Source: a virus. Taken from it: 27,206 nt of DNA. Position numbers and translations under genes: made by a program. Every line of letters begins with the position of its first letter. The first letter of the stretch is position 1. A model generated the notes under the pieces. The model had not been told where the DNA came from. It ran no database searches and worked only from the letters and a program-made list of their open reading frames with translations. The stretch covers positions 1-27,206 of IMG/VR virus record IMGVR_UViG_3300042392_002058; one strand, written 5' to 3'. Shown here one piece after another: positions 3,954 to 20,844 of the stretch.

Positions 3954-6515
3954 TTAACTGAAGAAGTCTTCAAGACTTGAGCCAGGTTCTGCTTTCCATT
4001 GCACTGCATCAAGTACGAGTTGAAGAGGGTCTAAGAATGTTTTTTCAAAAAGTAGATCACGATCAACCCAACGATGCAAATCAAACTCTTGCGGAAGATG
4101 ATCAATAAACCCAATTACGTTTTCACCAGTAGGATTACCTTTCTTGAGATAGATGTATTTGATTTTATCACCTCCTTTGATGAGATGATATTGTTGTGTG
4201 AGTCCAAGCTTTTTCAACATATGATTATACATAATTGACGCGCGACTGTTGATAGGAGTTCCACTCTTATATGGAACTGTATTTTCATTTTTGCTTGTGC
4301 GTTGTGTCCACTTTACAATGTCAGACACGCCACGAGGAAACGCCATCTTTTCAACGTCATACACATCAAACTCTGCTCTAAACTTTGCAACTTCAGCTTG
4401 AATGTCTTTTTCGGTTTGCGTCACGAGAATTTTAAAGATGCGTTTAAACTCTTCACGACAAATCTTTGGAGTGCTGCTTTTAATAGCTTCGATACCTTTC
4501 ATTACAATCTTAGGTTCTGCATACTGCACGCCTTCACTCGAAAGAACATTTAGGATATAACGTTTTTTAGCGGTAAAGATTGCCACGCTGCTAATCTTTT
4601 CAACCTTCATAACCATCGTATTTTTATAGACGTTAGTCTTGCGAGCAAGATTGTTATACGCATTTTTAATTACTGGCTCAAGCGCGTCTTTACCAAACTT
4701 GATTAGGAATGCATGAGGGTCTTTAGGCTTACACTTTTCAATTACGTCAGCGAGATTGATATAGATCGAATCTGTGTCTGACGCGACAATACGGTCTTTA
4801 GGCTTCTCATCACCGAGTGCTTTTACGAGATATTCATTTACTGCATTTTCAGCAGTGTGAATTGCAAGTTGACCTGATAGTGTGATGCCCTCAGCTATAT
4901 CAAGATTGAAATAGCGGAAATATTGGTTTGCAGCAGCGCCATACAGACTGTTAAGCAAAATCTTAAGACACATCTGACGATTACTCGCGCGGTCAATTTC
5001 AATTTGAAGGTCAGCATAACGACGTGATGTTTTATCAACTGTCTCTGCTTCTGCTTCATAGTCAAGCATCTTGCGTTTTACTTCGACACGCTGATTATAG
5101 AGTTCTTCAATAATTTCAGGCAGGATGCCTTGCTTGTCACGACGAAAGCATGCGCCGTTTGCTGCAACTGCAAGATTGTCTTCAGGCGCCCACATCTGTT
5201 CAGAGTTTAAGATCTTGTCTTCACCACCGTTTTGAAGTGCAGCAACTTTCATATGAGGCACAATCGTTTCTGGACTCATATTATATTGTACAATAAGATT
5301 TGGGTACAAGCTATTAAGGTCAAAGCTCATAACCCATTCATGACGACCGATCTGTGGCTCTTTAACAAATCCACCAGCATAGTCGCTCTTAAACGAGCGA
5401 GTGTTTGGCGGAATTGCAATATGGCGAGTCGCAAGTTTGCGGAAAATAATACTGTCCCAAATTGCGACAGTGCCTAGTGTGTCAGCATAGTTTACACCAC
5501 CAAAATATGAAAGGGTAAAGACGAGATTGATTAATCCAAGCTTTGCTTCAAGTCGTTCGATAAGTTCAATGTCAACGACGTTATAGTCAATAAACTTTTG
5601 ATAGTCACGCTCATAGAGTTCAGTGAGTGTGCCATACTGACTGTAGTCAATTTTATTTTGACCGAGTACAACTTCAGCAATAAAGTCTAGACGATACGAC
5701 TCTTGCGCGCCATATGTGTTTGCTGCAAACTTTTTAAAGAGATCGAGATAGTCGAGTTGTTGAATGCCATACAAGTTGTACAAGAAGTTTTCCTTACCTT
5801 TAATCATGACTGCCTTTTGTTCGACATAGTTCCATGGCGACATCTTCTTAGCTGCGTCCTGACCAAGCACACGAGCAATGCGATTTACAAGATATGGAAT
5901 ATCGAACAGCCGAATGTTCCAACCGGTCACTACATCAGGAGTGTTTAATGTATCAAACCACCACTCGATAAAGTCTTCTAGCAATTCATATTCACTGTCA
6001 AATTGACGAAACTGCTTTTTAAGATGAGGCACACTTGACTGCGAAGCGTCATATGACTTTAATCCCCAAATGATATAGTGATCGAGACGGCTGCTTTTAA
6101 GTCCAATCGCAGTTATTTCCTGATCAGCCACCGATGGCTCTGGGAAACCGTTGTCAGAACGACATTCAATATCGAGAGAGACAACATCAATACGTTTAGA
6201 ATCATACTTAATTTCATTTGGAAATTCTGCCTGAATAAAAGCAGGTATATGACGATCATTTCCATAAATTTTAAAGTTGTCTATGCCTTCATAATTTTTA
6301 ATAAACGCTCGACAATCAGACATGCTGTCGAATCGCATGGGCTCAAGTGGAAGTCCATCAAGTGAACGCCACTTTGCATTCTTGTCTTTACTCTCGAGAT
6401 ACATCACGGGTCGAAACTTGAATGTATCATAAACCTTTTGTCCATCTAAATCATACCCGCGATAGAGCAGGGTATTCATCTTACGCTCAATACAAGTATA
6501 GAAACCATTAATCAT
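3954..6515 (-). CDS. 43: DNA polymerase gp43 (family B)
   Basis: This is the replicative DNA polymerase of T4 type, 853 aa (T4: 898). The 3'-5' exonuclease motifs are LDIECRS around residue 115, GWNIRLFDIPYL from 199 and YNVVDIELI at 311-319. The polymerase motifs are FDLNSLYPN at 398-406, KILLNSLYGA at 518-527 and SDTDSIY at 579-585. The C-terminus ends PGSSLEDFFS, a likely clamp-binding tail (LEDFF). It acts with gp45/44/62 encoded upstream. The start at 6515 is supported by the family-like N-terminus and a promoter eight bases upstream. I see no intein or intron. Confidence 0.96.
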   Translation of the reverse strand: MINGFYTCIERKMNTLLYRGYDLDGQKVYDTFKFRPVMYLESKDKNAKWRSLDGLPLEPMRFDSMSDCRAFIKNYEGIDNFKIYGNDRHIPAFIQAEFPNEIKYDSKRIDVVSLDIECRSDNGFPEPSVADQEITAIGLKSSRLDHYIIWGLKSYDASQSSVPHLKKQFRQFDSEYELLEDFIEWWFDTLNTPDVVTGWNIRLFDIPYLVNRIARVLGQDAAKKMSPWNYVEQKAVMIKGKENFLYNLYGIQQLDYLDLFKKFAANTYGAQESYRLDFIAEVVLGQNKIDYSQYGTLTELYERDYQKFIDYNVVDIELIERLEAKLGLINLVFTLSYFGGVNYADTLGTVAIWDSIIFRKLATRHIAIPPNTRSFKSDYAGGFVKEPQIGRHEWVMSFDLNSLYPNLIVQYNMSPETIVPHMKVAALQNGGEDKILNSEQMWAPEDNLAVAANGACFRRDKQGILPEIIEELYNQRVEVKRKMLDYEAEAETVDKTSRRYADLQIEIDRASNRQMCLKILLNSLYGAAANQYFRYFNLDIAEGITLSGQLAIHTAENAVNEYLVKALGDEKPKDRIVASDTDSIYINLADVIEKCKPKDPHAFLIKFGKDALEPVIKNAYNNLARKTNVYKNTMVMKVEKISSVAIFTAKKRYILNVLSSEGVQYAEPKIVMKGIEAIKSSTPKICREEFKRIFKILVTQTEKDIQAEVAKFRAEFDVYDVEKMAFPRGVSDIVKWTQRTSKNENTVPYKSGTPINSRASIMYNHMLKKLGLTQQYHLIKGGDKIKYIYLKKGNPTGENVIGFIDHLPQEFDLHRWVDRDLLFEKTFLDPLQLVLDAVQWKAEPGSSLEDFFS

Positions 6516-6523
6516 GTGAGAGT

Positions 6524-6552
6524 ATTATACCACAAACCGGCAAAGATGTAAA
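6524..6552 (-). promoter_or_regulatory. Early sigma-70 promoter for gp43
   Basis: On the minus strand TTTACA (6552-6547), exactly 17 bp, TATAAT (6529-6524), then ACTCTCAC and ATG. The predicted start is about two bases before the gp43 start codon. The spacer is almost entirely one arm of the upstream hairpin, so transcription through from hsp20 and initiation here use the same DNA. Confidence 0.75.
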
Positions 6553-6571
6553 TAATAATCTTTGCCGGTTT
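6534..6571. terminator. 14-bp perfect hairpin after hsp20, overlapping the gp43 promoter
   Basis: AAACCGGCAAAGAT (6534-6547) and its reverse complement (6558-6571) pair around a 10-base loop. It lies between hsp20 and gp43. On the plus strand it is followed by GATATTTTT; on the minus strand no T-run follows, so it would be a weak intrinsic terminator for hsp20. Its 3' arm is the spacer of the gp43 promoter. Confidence 0.6.
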
Positions 6572-6594
6572 GATATTTTTATGCTATTCTGTTA

Positions 6595-7088: not shown

Positions 7089-8003
7089 TTATTTATATTC
7101 TGGAAGTGTGAATTCTTTGAAAGAAAGCAATTTTCTACTAGAAATTATTTCAAAGAATGTCTTCGCCTCTTCAGAGTTTAACTTTTTATAGTCAAACTCT
7201 ACGGCAGAATATATTGGACGATAATGAAGTGTGCGTTCTTTAGCAACAAGGAGGAGTTGACCAGTCGTGACCATCTCAGCTTTCTTGATGTCTCCAGTTC
7301 GTATTGGATTCATAAACTTATCATCATTTGGTTTTTGAGACATAGCCTCAAGAAACTCATATGGGTCATTGATTGTATTATCACGAAGATAGTTGTTTAC
7401 TATTTCCCAACGAGTCTCAGAACTCTTACGAGCTGCTTGAAGATGAGGGTCAGTTGCCTTTGCACTATAACCAAGCATCTTTAAGTCGATGCCATGATTT
7501 GTACGGACACAATGATCTTCCTCCTGAGTTATCTCTTTAAGGTTGTAGATATACTTACGAGGATTTTCCGCTGTCGCTTCATCCTTTTTAACTGTAAATC
7601 CACCTTCAAGAAGATAGCACTTTTCAGGATTAAAGATGAATGTTGCGCCGGCAAGTTCTTTTTCAATTAGGAATTTTGCTGCTTCTTTAGGATCTTGCAA
7701 ACGAAGAGCATTACGAATCGCAAGGCCATCAGGAGAGACGATTGGAGTTTTCTTTTTATTTTTTGAAAGAACCTTTTCTCCTTCTTTCTCGTCGCTCTTT
7801 ACACTAAAAGATGCAGATATAATTGACAGACCATATTCATTTACACCTTCAGTCCATCGTGTAGTTTGATCATCAATAAAGAGGCGTTGAATGCCACCAC
7901 GGTTAGAATTAACAACTTTAATTGATGTTGGGTAATTGCGGTCTCTGTTTTTAGCGCCGACCCAACCATATTTCTTGATGTACTTGACTGCGACTACACA
8001 CAT
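7089..8003 (-). CDS. Ntn-hydrolase-like enzyme (N-terminal Cys)
   Basis: This 304-aa protein starts MCVVAVKY and then GWVGAKNRDRNYP. A Cys directly after the initiator Met followed by an NRD-type motif is typical of Ntn-hydrolases that use Cys as autocatalytically exposed nucleophile (acyltransferase/C45 peptidase, choloylglycine hydrolase and TANGO2/NRDE relatives). Other family-like segments are WTEGVNEYGLSIISASF, DPKEAAKFLIEKELAGATFIF, and HCVRTNHGI. These enzymes cleave linear amide bonds (peptides, N-acyl amino compounds, N-acyl lactones); the substrate here cannot be told. It is preceded by a late promoter, and its own 3' end contains the late box for hsp20. Confidence 0.75.
   Translation of the reverse strand: MCVVAVKYIKKYGWVGAKNRDRNYPTSIKVVNSNRGGIQRLFIDDQTTRWTEGVNEYGLSIISASFSVKSDEKEGEKVLSKNKKKTPIVSPDGLAIRNALRLQDPKEAAKFLIEKELAGATFIFNPEKCYLLEGGFTVKKDEATAENPRKYIYNLKEITQEEDHCVRTNHGIDLKMLGYSAKATDPHLQAARKSSETRWEIVNNYLRDNTINDPYEFLEAMSQKPNDDKFMNPIRTGDIKKAEMVTTGQLLLVAKERTLHYRPIYSAVEFDYKKLNSEEAKTFFEIISSRKLLSFKEFTLPEYK
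7090..7097 (-). promoter_or_regulatory. Late promoter box TATAAATA for hsp20
   Basis: A TATAAATA box on the minus strand overlaps the last codons of the Ntn-hydrolase gene. The predicted start at about 7084 gives an 85-base leader before the hsp20 ATG at 6999, much longer than the other late leaders. Confidence 0.55.
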
Positions 8004-8727: not shown

Positions 8728-9165
8728 TTAGCCCTTTTTCTTCACGTTGCCTATACTATATTTAGAACGTAAATCCCAATCGGCTTTATCTCGATGAGAG
8801 ATGATTTTAATCTGCTTTAGTGAAGTAGTACCATTGATAGAGGCACGATCGACGATAGAGAGCAGATTCCAATCTGAAAGCAAGAGCGCTATGGTATTAC
8901 GACGACATTGATCTTCATACATAAAAGTAGAAGGTTTGCCGTCGAGCATAAAGAGTTCTTTAAAGTGAACTATAAAATAGCGACCTTGTTTGTGAAGAAT
9001 ATGACAACTTTGAAAGAGAACGTTAGTCTCACGCTTTGATGAGACACCAATACGAGAAAGAGTTTCTTTAATCTTTAAAAAATCATCAGGGTCATGCAAA
9101 TACACCTCAAGCATTTGAGATGGTGACCATTCAACAATATCTGTGGGGAGGTAAGATTTATTCAT
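8728..9165 (-). CDS. regA: RegA translational repressor
   Basis: RegA binds the start regions of many early T4 mRNAs, including the clamp-loader messages, and represses translation. The body aligns by eye with T4 RegA: LHDPDDFLKIKETLSRIGVSS, LFQSCHILHKQGRYFIVHFKE, DQCRRNTIALLLSDWNLLSIV and the C-terminal WDLRSKYSIGNV. The ATG at 9165 gives 145 aa, about 17 more N-terminal residues than T4; a second ATG at 9114 (MLEVYLHDP) matches the T4 start exactly. I keep the first because the late promoter lies 16 bases upstream of it. Its stop lies two bases before the next gene. Confidence 0.92.
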   Translation of the reverse strand: MNKSYLPTDIVEWSPSQMLEVYLHDPDDFLKIKETLSRIGVSSKRETNVLFQSCHILHKQGRYFIVHFKELFMLDGKPSTFMYEDQCRRNTIALLLSDWNLLSIVDRASINGTTSLKQIKIISHRDKADWDLRSKYSIGNVKKKG

Positions 9166-9180
9166 AATAACGATATACTA

Positions 9181-9188
9181 TATTTATA
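9181..9188 (-). promoter_or_regulatory. Late promoter box TATAAATA before regA
   Basis: A perfect TATAAATA box on the minus strand in the short gap after the 75-aa gene. The predicted start is about 9175, leaving a 10-base leader without Shine-Dalgarno before the ATG at 9165. Confidence 0.6.
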
Positions 9189-9207
9189 ATATATCGAGTT
9201 TTATGAA

Positions 9208-9435
9208 TTATCGACCTTTTCTACTTTGTCGTGCTGCTTTGTTTTTTGCTCGGCGCTTTTCAACTCGCTTAGGAGACAGGTTCTTTTTGCCAGTACGAGT
9301 TCTCCATCCGCCTTGCATCATGCGACGCAAAAATTTAGTTGGGTCAATTGACAACTTTTGACCTTCATCAAGTGTGACCTCTTCTAAGATCTCTGCTTCA
9401 ACGATTTTTTGATTTTCCTGTTCCTCCGACATCAT
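9208..9435 (-). CDS. Small basic hypothetical protein
   Basis: This 75-aa protein lies between gp62 and regA, where T4 has no gene. The N-terminal third is acidic (EEQENQKIVEAEILEEV), and the C-terminal half is strongly basic (RRMMQGGWRTRTGKKNLSPKR, then KRRAKNKAARQSRKGR), suggesting nucleic acid binding. Two ATGs in tandem (9435 and 9432) are possible starts. It overlaps gp62 by 38 bases in another frame, which supports coupled expression. Its function is not recognised. Confidence 0.7.
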   Translation of the reverse strand: MMSEEQENQKIVEAEILEEVTLDEGQKLSIDPTKFLRRMMQGGWRTRTGKKNLSPKRVEKRRAKNKAARQSRKGR

Positions 9436-9856
9436 GTTTTTGTTTTAGTTTTTCTAGTTGTGTTTGTGTGAATAGCGGTAGCAATTGACGAGCTTTTTCA
9501 GCGCTGCATTCATATTCAGACATAATGTTTTTAATGTCTGCGCCATCGTCTGCTTTTTTAGACCATTTGCTAAAGCGCTTGCGTGGACGAATCGCGCCTC
9601 GTAAAAAATCATATTGCATCTTTGCTGGCAAACTTGCATGCATATTCATCTCATTTGCAAACAAGACAGTATCATTAAAATACGACAGTCCACGATTGAC
9701 CATAAATGGCACATACTGACGATCAGCACGTGATGGATCAGGCAACGAGTCACTGACATCAGCAGTGCAACCTTGCATCAGATTTTTACCGCTTTGACCT
9801 TCGTTGATCGAATTGATAAAGTCAAAAGGTGACAGCTTTTTTAGTTCTTGTTCCAT
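9398..9856 (-). CDS. 62: Clamp loader small subunit gp62
   Basis: gp62 is the non-ATPase subunit of the T4 clamp loader. The 152-aa protein is shorter than T4 gp62 (187 aa) but has the family signature YVPFMVNRGLSYFNDTVLFA, NEMNMHASLPAKMQYDFL and RGAIRPRKRFSKWSK. The ATG lies inside the last codons of gp44 (16-base overlap), a sign of translational coupling that in T4 sets the gp44:gp62 ratio. The C-terminal tail is basic. It overlaps the next gene by 38 bases. Confidence 0.9.
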   Translation of the reverse strand: MEQELKKLSPFDFINSINEGQSGKNLMQGCTADVSDSLPDPSRADRQYVPFMVNRGLSYFNDTVLFANEMNMHASLPAKMQYDFLRGAIRPRKRFSKWSKKADDGADIKNIMSEYECSAEKARQLLPLFTQTQLEKLKQKHDVGGTGKSKNR

Positions 9857-10794
9857 TCAACGCTGCTCATAAGTTCAGTTAAACATGCAACCATATTGAT
9901 TTCTTTGTCAGCAACAAACGCTGCTTTATAGCTATAGTCTGCAAGTATAAGCACTGCTGCAGGAATACTCGATGGACTTGCATAGTCATAGAGATTGTCA
10001 TAGATTTTTCTAAAGACTACGCTGCTGTCTAAGCTGCTATTATTGACAACCCAGTTTCTCATCGATTTAAAGTCTTTTGACTTTAGATGAGTTGCAAGTT
10101 CAGCGATGTTCTGATCACTCATGCCAACCAAGATAGCAGTAGGAATTTCTCCGCTCGTACTGTATCGTTGACACTCGTTGATTACTCGTCTCCAGTCAGG
10201 AGCATAACGAATAATCAATTCTGCAATTGTCTTGTCAGTATACTTGATGCCTTCAGTCTTGAGAATAAAGGTCAAGCGTTTCATAAAATCTCCAGCGAGT
10301 GCAGCAAGAGATTTTTTAGTGGTGTTAAATTCGATTACTGAACAACGTGAATGCAGCGGTTCAATGATTCGATTTTTAAAATTACAAGTCAGGATAAATC
10401 TACAATTAGCACTAAACTCTTCGATAAACCCGCGAAGTGCAGGCATCGTTGATTGTGGGTTTAGATAGTCAGCCTCATCGAGAATGACTACTTTATAACC
10501 ACCCGAGAGTGAAACTGTAGACGCAAACTGCTTGATCTTATTTCTTAATACATCAATACCGCTTTCTTCAGAACCGTTAATGAGTATATAGTCAAGGCTC
10601 AACATGTTGCAAAGAGCTTTTGCAACCGTAGTTTTACCAAGTCCGGCCGTTCCAGCAAGAAGCAAGTTTGGTAGTTGACCTCCTTGTACGAGGTCATTAA
10701 ACGTACGCTTTAGTTCCGCTGGAAGAATACACTCATCAATCGTCTGAGGACGATACTTTTCACACCATATCGGTTCAAGTTCACTATTATTCAT
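9841..10794 (-). CDS. 44: Clamp loader large subunit gp44
   Basis: gp44 is the AAA+ ATPase of the T4 clamp loader, working with gp62 to load gp45. The 317-aa length matches T4 (319 aa). The sequence shows MNNSELEPIWCEKYRPQTID at the start (the RFC-type W.EKYRP motif), Walker A GTAGLGKT at 48-55, Walker B VVILDEADYL, and the SRC motif HSRCSVIEF. The start ATG overlaps the endonuclease stop, so translation is probably coupled to it, and its own promoter appears to lie beyond the inserted endonuclease. Its 3' end overlaps the gp62 start. Confidence 0.95.
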   Translation of the reverse strand: MNNSELEPIWCEKYRPQTIDECILPAELKRTFNDLVQGGQLPNLLLAGTAGLGKTTVAKALCNMLSLDYILINGSEESGIDVLRNKIKQFASTVSLSGGYKVVILDEADYLNPQSTMPALRGFIEEFSANCRFILTCNFKNRIIEPLHSRCSVIEFNTTKKSLAALAGDFMKRLTFILKTEGIKYTDKTIAELIIRYAPDWRRVINECQRYSTSGEIPTAILVGMSDQNIAELATHLKSKDFKSMRNWVVNNSSLDSSVVFRKIYDNLYDYASPSSIPAAVLILADYSYKAAFVADKEINMVACLTELMSSVEWNKN

Positions 10795-11432
10795 AATATT
10801 TTTCCATGTTTTTTAAGAAATTTTGAAGAATGTCCAGTATCATTAACTGCTTCAGATAAACTATTGTAAATTTTACCATTAAATTCAATTGATATAGCAT
10901 TTTTTGGTAATTTACCAAACATGCCATTATTTTCTCCTTTAATTAAAGATGAACGTATTATTCGTTCTTCATTGGTTAAAGATTCCCAATATTCAAGTCT
11001 TTTTTCAGATTGCTTTGCTTTAGTTTCTTCTGAATGATTTTTATCTTTCATGCCATATGATGCATACACATAAGATGGTCGATTTTTATGTACTAAATTT
11101 ATAGCATTTTGCCATGATTCGTATTTACTCATATCACCACCAGTTTCCCCTAAAGTAGAATTATAACCGCTATTACATGTATCATATTCTTTAATATATT
11201 TTATTTCTAATAATTTAGCAGTCTCAATGTCACCAATATTAGTTTCTAATATATCAAATTGAAATTTATCAACACCATATTTATACATTGATTGATAAAG
11301 GCGTTTACATGATCCCGTTCCACGCTTTCCATAAAAACAATGGTTTTTAAATCTAGTAAAAGGATCTTTAGTATATCCTATGTATTGTTTACCATTTACA
11401 GTATTAGTTATAATGTATATCGAATAATTCAT
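10791..11432 (-). CDS. GIY-YIG homing endonuclease
   Basis: This 213-aa protein is a free-standing GIY-YIG endonuclease. The catalytic domain has SIYIITN at 4-10 and KQYIGYT at 15-21, Arg27 in the PFTRFKNH segment, Glu76 in AKLLEIKYIKEYDT and Asn in GYNSTLGE. The C-terminal part contains NUMOD-type DNA-binding modules (HSEETKAKQSEKR, ENNGMFGK, and IEFNGKIYNSLSEAVNDTGHS). The gene is much more AT-rich than its neighbours, a sign of recent transfer. It lies between dsbA and gp44, its TGA overlapping the gp44 start (ATGA). A hairpin and late promoter cover its start, reminiscent of T4 I-TevI control. Confidence 0.93.
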   Translation of the reverse strand: MNYSIYIITNTVNGKQYIGYTKDPFTRFKNHCFYGKRGTGSCKRLYQSMYKYGVDKFQFDILETNIGDIETAKLLEIKYIKEYDTCNSGYNSTLGETGGDMSKYESWQNAINLVHKNRPSYVYASYGMKDKNHSEETKAKQSEKRLEYWESLTNEERIIRSSLIKGENNGMFGKLPKNAISIEFNGKIYNSLSEAVNDTGHSSKFLKKHGKIL

Positions 11433-11473
11433 TTATATCGTTCTATAACGATATTTATATAAATGAATTATTC
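11422..11473. repeat. Large hairpin over the homing endonuclease start, with late promoter
   Basis: The arms 11422-11442 and 11447-11473 are inverted copies around a four-base loop; the second arm has six extra bases that bulge. On the minus strand the 5' arm contains a TATAAATA box (11459-11452) and the 3' arm contains the endonuclease ATG (11432). With T4 late-promoter geometry, the late transcript starts at about 11446, the first loop base, and so lacks the 5' arm. Confidence 0.8.
11452..11459 (-). promoter_or_regulatory. Late promoter box TATAAATA for the homing endonuclease
   Basis: A perfect TATAAATA box sits within the 5' arm of the hairpin. The predicted start at about 11446 gives a 14-base leader (starting AUAGAACG) before the ATG at 11432. 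Transcripts from upstream would include the full hairpin; late transcripts would not. Confidence 0.65.
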
Positions 11474-11483
11474 ATGAGTCTAT

Positions 11484-11510
11484 ATTATACCAAAGTGATT
11501 TGTTTGTAAA
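11484..11510 (-). promoter_or_regulatory. Sigma-70-like promoter in the dsbA 3' end
   Basis: On the minus strand TTTACA (11510-11505), a short 15-bp spacer, and TATAAT (11489-11484), which includes the dsbA stop codon. Eight bases later comes an ATG (11475) opening a six-codon reading frame MNNSFI. The -10 to ATG distance equals that of the gp43 and primase-gene promoters, and MNNS is also the N-terminus of gp44. Probably the former gp44 promoter. Confidence 0.5.
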
Positions 11511-11739
11511 CATTTTTAATCTCCGCAGTTTCATTTTCAAATTGTGCTGCGTTCTTTTTATGGTATAATTTTGCGACTTTTCGGATGAGTGGTTTTGGCA
11601 TATCAAATGCATCGGCGGCTGCGTCAATAATATTCTTAATTTGATCTCGGCAATCATCCATCTTACCAAGTTCGTGGCTAATTTCTTGAACTGCGTCGAG
11701 CAATTCTTTTTTAGTTTTAGGGTCAGTCAAGTCAATCAT
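11485..11739 (-). CDS. dsbA: DsbA-like double-stranded DNA-binding protein
   Basis: The 84-aa protein matches the T4 DsbA family (89 aa), a small dsDNA-binding protein implicated in late-promoter regulation. Diagnostic segments are LDAVQEISHELGKMDDCRDQ, IKNIIDAAADAFDMPKPLIRK and VAKLYHKKNAAQFENE. The start lies in a TATATTATG context 10 bases after the preceding stop. Its stop codon TAA is part of a TATAAT hexamer, so a promoter for the downstream gene is embedded in its 3' end. Confidence 0.8.
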   Translation of the reverse strand: MIDLTDPKTKKELLDAVQEISHELGKMDDCRDQIKNIIDAAADAFDMPKPLIRKVAKLYHKKNAAQFENETAEIKNVYKQITLV

Positions 11740-12313: not shown

Positions 12314-12988
12314 TTAGTTGTTAAATGTGGATGTATTTTCAAGTGCGATATAATATTGCACATCTTGACCAGTGTGTTTCCAATGACTGATTAGTTTTGA
12401 AGAGATGTTTACTGCATAGTCTCCTTGAAGAAGCTTAAGATTTGCAATTAAAAACTGCAAATCAAAAGATCCCTTTTGAGCATTGTCTTCGTCTAATGTC
12501 ACTGAAAATGTATTTGCTGCACTATTTTTAGGATCAACAACTGAAAGTGTGACGACACCATCATTTCCACGAATAGACATAATTGTGTGTCCAAGTACTC
12601 CAGCAGCTTTGCGAACTTGTGCCAAGATGTCAGAAGAGATGCTCACAGACAAGTCTGCATTTGGCATATTGATTTTATTCTTAGGACTTGTGAGAATACT
12701 CTCATCAGCAAATCTATAGGTAGCCTTTGTCTTTCCAGACTTAAAGACAACGCTGTCAGTTGAAAATTCAAGTTCAGGATCTTGCATCAATGAAAGCATA
12801 CTAATAAATTCATTGAGATCGTAAATTCCAAATCCAGCTTGGAAAGATTCTGAAATGCCAGCAATTGCCATAATATTTTTTGCTGCAGAAATTGTCGAAA
12901 GAGGTTCTCCGGCCTTTACGACAAGGTTGGAGTTGATACCTGAAAAATTCTTTAAGATGTCAATTGTTTGTGTTGATAATTTAGTCAT
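12314..12988 (-). CDS. 45: DNA polymerase sliding clamp gp45
   Basis: gp45 is the trimeric sliding clamp that tethers gp43 to DNA and, in T4, also activates late transcription through gp55/gp33. The 224-aa length matches T4 (228 aa). The N-terminal MTKLSTQTIDILKNFSGINS and the segments FGIYDLNEFISMLSL and FADESIL are family hallmarks, and the N-terminus fixes the start at 12988. It is the first of the replisome genes in transcription order (45, 44, 62, regA, 43), as in T4, but small genes and an endonuclease separate it from gp44. Confidence 0.94.
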   Translation of the reverse strand: MTKLSTQTIDILKNFSGINSNLVVKAGEPLSTISAAKNIMAIAGISESFQAGFGIYDLNEFISMLSLMQDPELEFSTDSVVFKSGKTKATYRFADESILTSPKNKINMPNADLSVSISSDILAQVRKAAGVLGHTIMSIRGNDGVVTLSVVDPKNSAANTFSVTLDEDNAQKGSFDLQFLIANLKLLQGDYAVNISSKLISHWKHTGQDVQYYIALENTSTFNN

Positions 12989-13335: not shown

Positions 13336-13373
13336 TTTGCGGTGGAGAAGAACAGCGCCCTCTCCACCGCAAA
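13336..13373 (-). other. 13-bp perfect GC-rich hairpin between genes
   Basis: TTTGCGGTGGAGA (13336-13348) and TCTCCACCGCAAA (13361-13373) form a perfect 13-bp stem with a 12-base loop. On the minus strand it starts 13 bases after the HTH gene and ends 11 bases before the ATG of the next gene. No T-run follows, so it is more likely an RNA processing, stability or translation-control element than an intrinsic terminator. Confidence 0.7.
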
Positions 13374-20235: not shown

Positions 20236-20844
20236 TTAGTCTAAAAAATCAGAAAGAGGACCACACTCTTCAAAGTCTGGTGCTTTTTTCTCAGCACGTG
20301 GTTTTTTAGCCTCTTTTTTGGGAGCGTCATCTGCATCAGTCTCATTATAAAAGCTGTCATTCTTTTGACGAACCTTTTCGACGAGTGATTCACCAGTCAT
20401 ATCATCGTCATCAAATTCAGCAAAATTACCAATGCCACCTTTTTCTATTAAGAGCTGCTTAATATCAGCCTGCTTCTTTTCCTTTGCGATACGACGTAAA
20501 AACGCATACCACGAAATTTGAGTAAAATATGAAAATGCATTTGGATTGCCAGTACGAGTAGGTTTGGTAATATCATAGTTTGTAATTGCTTTTACACAAT
20601 TTTCTACAGCATCCATAACCATGTCTTCTCTATAGCTGTAGTTCATAAAGTTTGGGCTACGAGACAAGCCATTGGCAATCTTCATAAAGCATTCACCAAT
20701 ATAGTTAGGAATTTGTCGAGCTTCTTTGCCATTTGATCGGTCATCCATTACTTCTTGGACATACTCGACAACAGCCGCAGAAAATTCTTTATTATTCACA
20801 TAGTCATCGCCACGTGATTTTCTTTTAGTTTTTTCAGTTTTCAT
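20236..20844 (-). CDS. 55: Late-transcription sigma factor gp55
   Basis: gp55 is the T4 sigma-like factor that directs host RNA polymerase to late promoters of the TATAAATA type. The 202-aa product is close to T4 gp55 (185 aa) and contains the diagnostic core NYSYREDMVMDAVENCVKA, NPNAFSYFTQISWYAFLRRI and AKEKKQADIKQLLIEKG, equivalent to a sigma region 2. The acidic/lysine-rich C-terminus ends in FEECGPLSDFLD, a likely sliding-clamp-binding tail as in T4 gp55. The start has no Shine-Dalgarno; the early promoter lies 6 bp upstream of the ATG, implying a leaderless message. Late boxes at several other genes in the window are its expected targets. Confidence 0.92.
   Translation of the reverse strand: MKTEKTKRKSRGDDYVNNKEFSAAVVEYVQEVMDDRSNGKEARQIPNYIGECFMKIANGLSRSPNFMNYSYREDMVMDAVENCVKAITNYDITKPTRTGNPNAFSYFTQISWYAFLRRIAKEKKQADIKQLLIEKGGIGNFAEFDDDDMTGESLVEKVRQKNDSFYNETDADDAPKKEAKKPRAEKKAPDFEECGPLSDFLD

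Follow-up and report, generated by a model that had tools for sequence, protein, structure and literature searches.

A late promoter box within a predicted start-blocking hairpin suggests a temporal translation gate for a free-standing homing endonuclease in a T4-like phage

In a 27,206-nucleotide stretch of viral DNA (the window), a free-standing gene for a GIY-YIG homing endonuclease has its start codon enclosed in a long RNA hairpin whose 5′ arm carries a T4-type late promoter box. These elements probably form a gate that times the translation of a selfish endonuclease, with the start buried on early and middle RNA and free on late RNA. The hairpin, the box, their geometry, the difference in folding energy, the behavior of the box across the clade and the insertion site were all computed.

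Gene content places the window within a T4-like phage. Profile searches assigned gp45, a DsbA-like regulator, gp44, gp62, regA and gp55, all on the minus strand (Table 1), and an 853-aa ORF at 3954-6515 is probably gp43, judging from its position and sequence only. T4-type late promoters require gp55, and gp45 is the activator of T4 late transcription; according to the profile search, the window phage encodes both of these components of the late transcription machinery. The endonuclease gene, whose putative function is assigned by family, is situated between the DsbA-like gene and gp44 and ends on a stop codon that overlaps the start of gp44 (ATGA).

Table 1 Features of the window discussed in the text.
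Feature	Position	Strand	Basis
Putative GIY-YIG homing endonuclease, free-standing, 213 aa	10791..11432	-	Pfam PF01541, 39.3 bits (cut-off 22.6); PHROG 314, E=1.2e-31
Hairpin 3′ arm (RNA), contains endonuclease ATG 11432-11430	11422..11442	-	Sequence; fold
Hairpin loop, 4 nt; 11446 is the predicted late +1	11443..11446	-	Sequence and T4 late geometry
Hairpin 5′ arm (RNA) with 6-nt bulge; predicted missing from late transcripts	11447..11473	-	Sequence; fold
T4-type late promoter box TATAAATA	11452..11459	-	Exact match
Original gp44 start codon, now displaced	11473..11475	-	Identity with L098 empty site GACTCATGAA
Sigma-70-like promoter TTTACA-15-TGGTATAAT, overlaps end of upstream gene	11484..11510	-	TTTACA..TATAA(T/G) kept in empty-site relatives L098-L106
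DsbA-like transcriptional regulator, upstream of endonuclease	11485..11739	-	Pfam PF11126; PHROG 639
gp44 clamp loader, altered N-terminus	9841..10794	-	PHROG 168; empty-site comparison
gp62	9398..9856	-	Profile search
Late-box hairpin in regA leader; TATAAATA at 9181-9188; regA start 9165	9171..9196	-	Sequence; covariation in relatives
regA translational repressor	8728..9165	-	Pfam PF01818, 138 bits
gp45 sliding clamp	12314..12988	-	PHROG 223, E=6e-69
gp55 late sigma factor	20236..20844	-	PHROG 234, E=3.6e-51

The stem comprises 22 bp in all: 17 perfect bp, the bulge in the 5′ arm, and then 5 bp. The box, a perfect match to TATAAATA, falls in the 5′ arm and bulge. By T4 geometry the predicted +1 lies 13 nt past the first T of the box, on the first base of the loop, which would exclude the 5′ arm from late RNA. 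A sequence-only reading of this DNA had described the arms, the loop and the enclosed ATG, and its coordinates proved correct; the geometry likewise agrees with its claim of a perfect late box in the 5′ arm with initiation at the first loop base. No clear Shine-Dalgarno sequence was found in the predicted late leader (AUAGAACGAUAUAAAUG).

The hairpin is confirmed as exceeding chance. No perfect stem in the window is longer than its 17 bp; the maximum was 11 bp in 12 dinucleotide shuffles of the whole window and 13 bp when the local 120 nt were shuffled 2000 times. Folding of 116 nt yielded -20.3 kcal/mol vs -11.4 kcal/mol for shuffled sequence (z = -3.3), and none of 200 shuffles was as stable. 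Other hairpins in the window include a 15-bp perfect, GC-containing one between the hsp20 and gp43 genes (6533-6572), possibly a terminator or RNA operator, and GC-rich ones at 13336-13373 and 2462-2498 (13 and 10 perfect bp, respectively).

Two long transcripts, one started upstream and one from the sigma-70-like promoter, were folded alongside the predicted late RNA from 11446. Opening the endonuclease start site (-12 to +13) costs 17.9-18.0 kcal/mol on the long transcripts and 1.9 kcal/mol on the late RNA, and this difference of ~18 vs ~2 is in the direction that the sequence-only reading expected. The computed probability that the AUG is unpaired is 0.00 on long RNA vs 0.76-0.88 on late RNA, and on upstream-initiated RNA the AUG is paired with a probability >0.99. 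As a control for burial, only sequence upstream of the box was shuffled (60 nt), whereupon the opening energy of the long RNA fell to 8.8 ± 1.6 kcal/mol and 0 of 200 shuffles reached the real value (z 5.4). The control motif ATAAATAT, which overlaps the real box, was dropped.

Across 198 kb of sequence, comprising the window and parts of four relatives, the coding strand has 49 copies of TATAAATA and the opposite strand none. Of these copies 36 lie outside ORFs, 36 lie no more than 100 nt upstream of an ORF start, and the box stands immediately upstream of 38 of the 282 ORFs. All seven copies in the window are on the coding strand (1.1 expected), a strong strand bias recurs in eight relatives searched whole, and related 8-mers behave more weakly. 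This bias and placement, together with the presence of gp55 and gp45, support a T4-type late box, and in this clade TATAAATA behaves as a late promoter would. Among 36 late-box genes that start with ATG (window, L107-L116), 20 have their predicted late +1 only 0-4 nt ahead of it; many late mRNAs of the clade may be leaderless or nearly so.

Relatives in which the DsbA-like gene is followed directly by gp44, with no endonuclease between them (L098, L099 and L100-L103; also L022 and L104-L106), reveal how the element was inserted. The empty site in L098 reads GGTATAATATAGACTCATGAAAGATGAATATTTGTGG; the window is identical to it through GACTCATGAA, after which the insert begins, placing the endonuclease directly behind the original gp44 start codon. 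The displaced ATG now opens a 6-codon ORF, ATGAATAATTCATTTATATAA (11475-11455), and the foot of the hairpin 5′ arm falls within this codon, a feature absent from the sequence-only reading. gp44 itself restarts on the ATG that overlaps the endonuclease stop, with the N-terminus MNNSELEPIWCEKY vs MKDEYLWCEKY in L098; the new N-terminus presumably came with the insert.

This comparison, with the endonuclease behind the old gp44 start, implies that the sigma-70-like promoter (TTTACA-15-TATAAT with an extended -10, TGG; 11510-11484) is probably the ancestral gp44 promoter, although its conservation in L098-L106 is confounded by coding sequence. The earlier suggestion that transcripts from this promoter carry the hairpin holds with a correction: the RNA would begin at the base of the hairpin, with just ~1-2 nt ahead of the old gp44 AUG, so early RNA from the old promoter would have the hairpin at its very 5′ end. 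A TATAAT or TATAAG -10-like element stands 5-11 nt before the gp44 ATG in L098, L100-L106, L022, L028 and L029. No Shine-Dalgarno sequence was found at gp44 in these endonuclease-free relatives, where the gp44 mRNA may be leaderless.

We infer three further steps: initiation at 11446, exclusion of ribosomes by the hairpin and late synthesis of the endonuclease. Early and middle RNA, whether reading through from the gp45 side or started at the old gp44 promoter, would contain both arms; with both present, the endonuclease start codon would be paired and the endonuclease silent, while gp44 behind it would be translated from its own start. Once RNA polymerase carrying gp55 takes over, initiation at TATAAATA would occur in the hairpin loop, yielding late RNA that lacks the 5′ arm, has a free start codon and allows late synthesis of the endonuclease.

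The main mechanistic doubt concerns the old gp44 AUG, since ribosomes that initiate there, at the base of the 5′ arm, could disturb the hairpin. In the strongest version, early RNA would recruit ribosomes through this 5′-terminal AUG; they would read six codons and melt the 5′ arm, so that some endonuclease would be made early and the gate would be leaky or reversed on that transcript. The old AUG and its 6-codon frame are retained in the window, and in the L098 empty site 8 nt separate a -10 box from the gp44 ATG, with similar spacing elsewhere and no Shine-Dalgarno sequence. The promoter, however, was recognized by consensus only, within coding sequence, and the effect would depend on how well 5′-terminal AUG starts work in the host; we consider such coupling very improbable.

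A further counterpoint to the gate is that some other cause could preserve a long palindrome in AT-rich DNA. In another reading, the palindrome is a DNA operator, to which the endonuclease would bind so as to repress its late promoter, in the manner of I-TevI. The inverted repeat does overlap the late box, and the operators of I-TevI, and probably of I-TevII and I-TevIII, overlap promoters (PMC2988022). Those operators nevertheless resemble the homing site, and when the leader was compared with the empty site, as a stand-in for the true homing site, 196 of 500 shuffles matched as well; no I-TevI-like operator was recognized in this comparison, and we give this explanation very little credence.

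Comparative evidence for the gate comes from other genes. The sole other copy of the window endonuclease is on a near-identical contig (99.98% over 4789 bases), so the endonuclease hairpin itself gains no comparative support from covariation, and the box is absent from the distant relatives L005, L008-L010 and L012-L015. A motif search of the 198 kb of T4-like DNA found GIY-YIG genes in the window, L108, L110, L111 and L115, all five with the box immediately upstream; profile search backs four as homing endonucleases, and L115, with no PHROG match, is assigned by motif. A sixth such gene with a box, in L004, lies between ORFs that on inspection are gp55-like and gp47-like, and overlaps the start of the next gene. 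Burial of the start by the upstream arm is well past chance in the window (z 5.4), L004 (z 5.5) and L115 (z 9.8), and not above chance in the other three of these six T4-like genes, L108, L110 and L111.

Both box and hairpin are kept in the homologues of the L004 gene (L274-L276), in which one pair is changed on both sides and a few pairs are broken in one sequence, and in those of the L115 gene (L271-L273), where the stems are weaker. Another leader with the box inside a hairpin was found in L277. These cases suggest that other uncultured T4-like phages carry the device at endonucleases unrelated in sequence. An HNH gene (L107:926) was rejected as a gated candidate, since shuffling upstream of the box is uninformative for a 5′ arm located within the box or beyond it.

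The regA leaders, one of which stands 2.3 kb downstream of the endonuclease hairpin in the window, offer better comparative evidence for the box-in-hairpin gate in this clade than the endonuclease can give. In a survey of late-box genes, 14 of 103 bury their start more than any of 60 shuffles (1.7 expected), although the phages are related and the sites are not independent. Nine of the 14 are regA leaders, and the others include the endonucleases of the window and L004 and an hsp20-like gene of L058. The box was present in 29 of 125 distinct regA leaders. In the regA leaders of L032, L031, L037, L028 and L210, four pairs of a 16-bp stem differ on both sides (7 such cells, a count reached in 0 of 500 shuffles). 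Slid controls of this stem showed no such pair. Because the stem was derived from the same sequences, the pairing percentage is overestimated, but the double changes are unaffected. In the regA group of the window itself, two pairs are changed on both sides (19 of 500 shuffles).

TATAAATA lies in a hairpin adjoining the regA start in the window, L031, L032, L037, L028, L105, L106 and L107. The L058 hsp20-like gene (~7405-7468) carries a late box, and its Shine-Dalgarno sequence is covered by a long hairpin (CTCCTATGATAGCG / CGCTAATCATAGGAG).

These observations bear on a third alternative, in which the late promoter is real and the gene late, with the hairpin barely affecting translation and arising incidentally from the insertion junction or the near-palindromic ATGAATAATTCAT. 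The ATGAATAATTCAT core of the hairpin is itself palindromic, only a single insertion (plus the near-identical contig) is available, and half of the six endonuclease late boxes lack a better-than-chance hairpin. A 22-bp stem is nonetheless far beyond the shuffles, and other endonuclease families and regA independently pair the box with a hairpin, with covariation, making a by-product unlikely. The gate proposed by the sequence-only reading draws support from the geometry, the folding energies, the behavior of the box, the presence of gp55, gp45 and the DsbA-like regulator, the other endonucleases and regA, with the timing of expression resting on inference.

We propose more tentatively, at somewhat short of even odds, that across a wide group of uncultured T4-like phages the placing of a late promoter inside a hairpin that blocks the start has evolved repeatedly as a general means of timing expression. 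It would serve both homing endonucleases and regA, with RegA held back on early polycistronic RNA and freed by late transcription. A literature search of partial coverage found no report of hairpin-gated regA. The regA hairpins suggest that these phages time the shutdown of early protein synthesis through the same gate, and the pattern across regA and several endonuclease families is what most merits further study.

The gate as such has precedents. For I-TevI of the T4 td intron, the hairpin forms only on early and middle RNA, with a late promoter positioned to leave the 5′ arm out of late RNA; similar arrangements are reviewed for I-TevII, I-TevIII, free-standing T4 segB and Aeh1 mobE (PMC2988022). 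The gate has been demonstrated for Aeh1 mobE and implicated for T4 segB (reviews PMC2988022, PMC3014915). The sequence-only reading had set this free-standing enzyme apart from I-TevI as an independent or preserved case; its claim to novelty fails because the same gate was already described for segB, mobE and I-TevI/II/III (PMC2988022, PMC3014915). The window endonuclease resembles I-TevI in having a predicted hairpin on upstream-started RNA and a predicted late promoter that skips the 5′ arm. I-TevI, however, is intron-encoded, with a consensus Shine-Dalgarno sequence and an autorepressor operator, whereas the window gene is free-standing, with no clear Shine-Dalgarno sequence and no recognizable operator. 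segB and mobE are closer, being free-standing endonucleases with a hairpin and late promoter, but they occupy the T4 tRNA region and the Aeh1 ribonucleotide reductase gene, respectively, rather than the gp44 start, and mobE belongs to the HNH family rather than GIY-YIG. The T4 genes e, soc and 49, whose start sites are hidden in long early RNA but accessible in late RNA (review PMC3014915), are phage genes rather than mobile elements and are comparable to the regA case here. What is new here is the empty site, which places the endonuclease behind the gp44 start and shows how an insertion captured the start of a host gene, together with the likely old gp44 promoter and the occurrences at regA and in several endonuclease families. 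The timing gate of I-TevI, segB and mobE would thereby extend outside the T4 and Aeh1 lineages, onto endonucleases unrelated in sequence.
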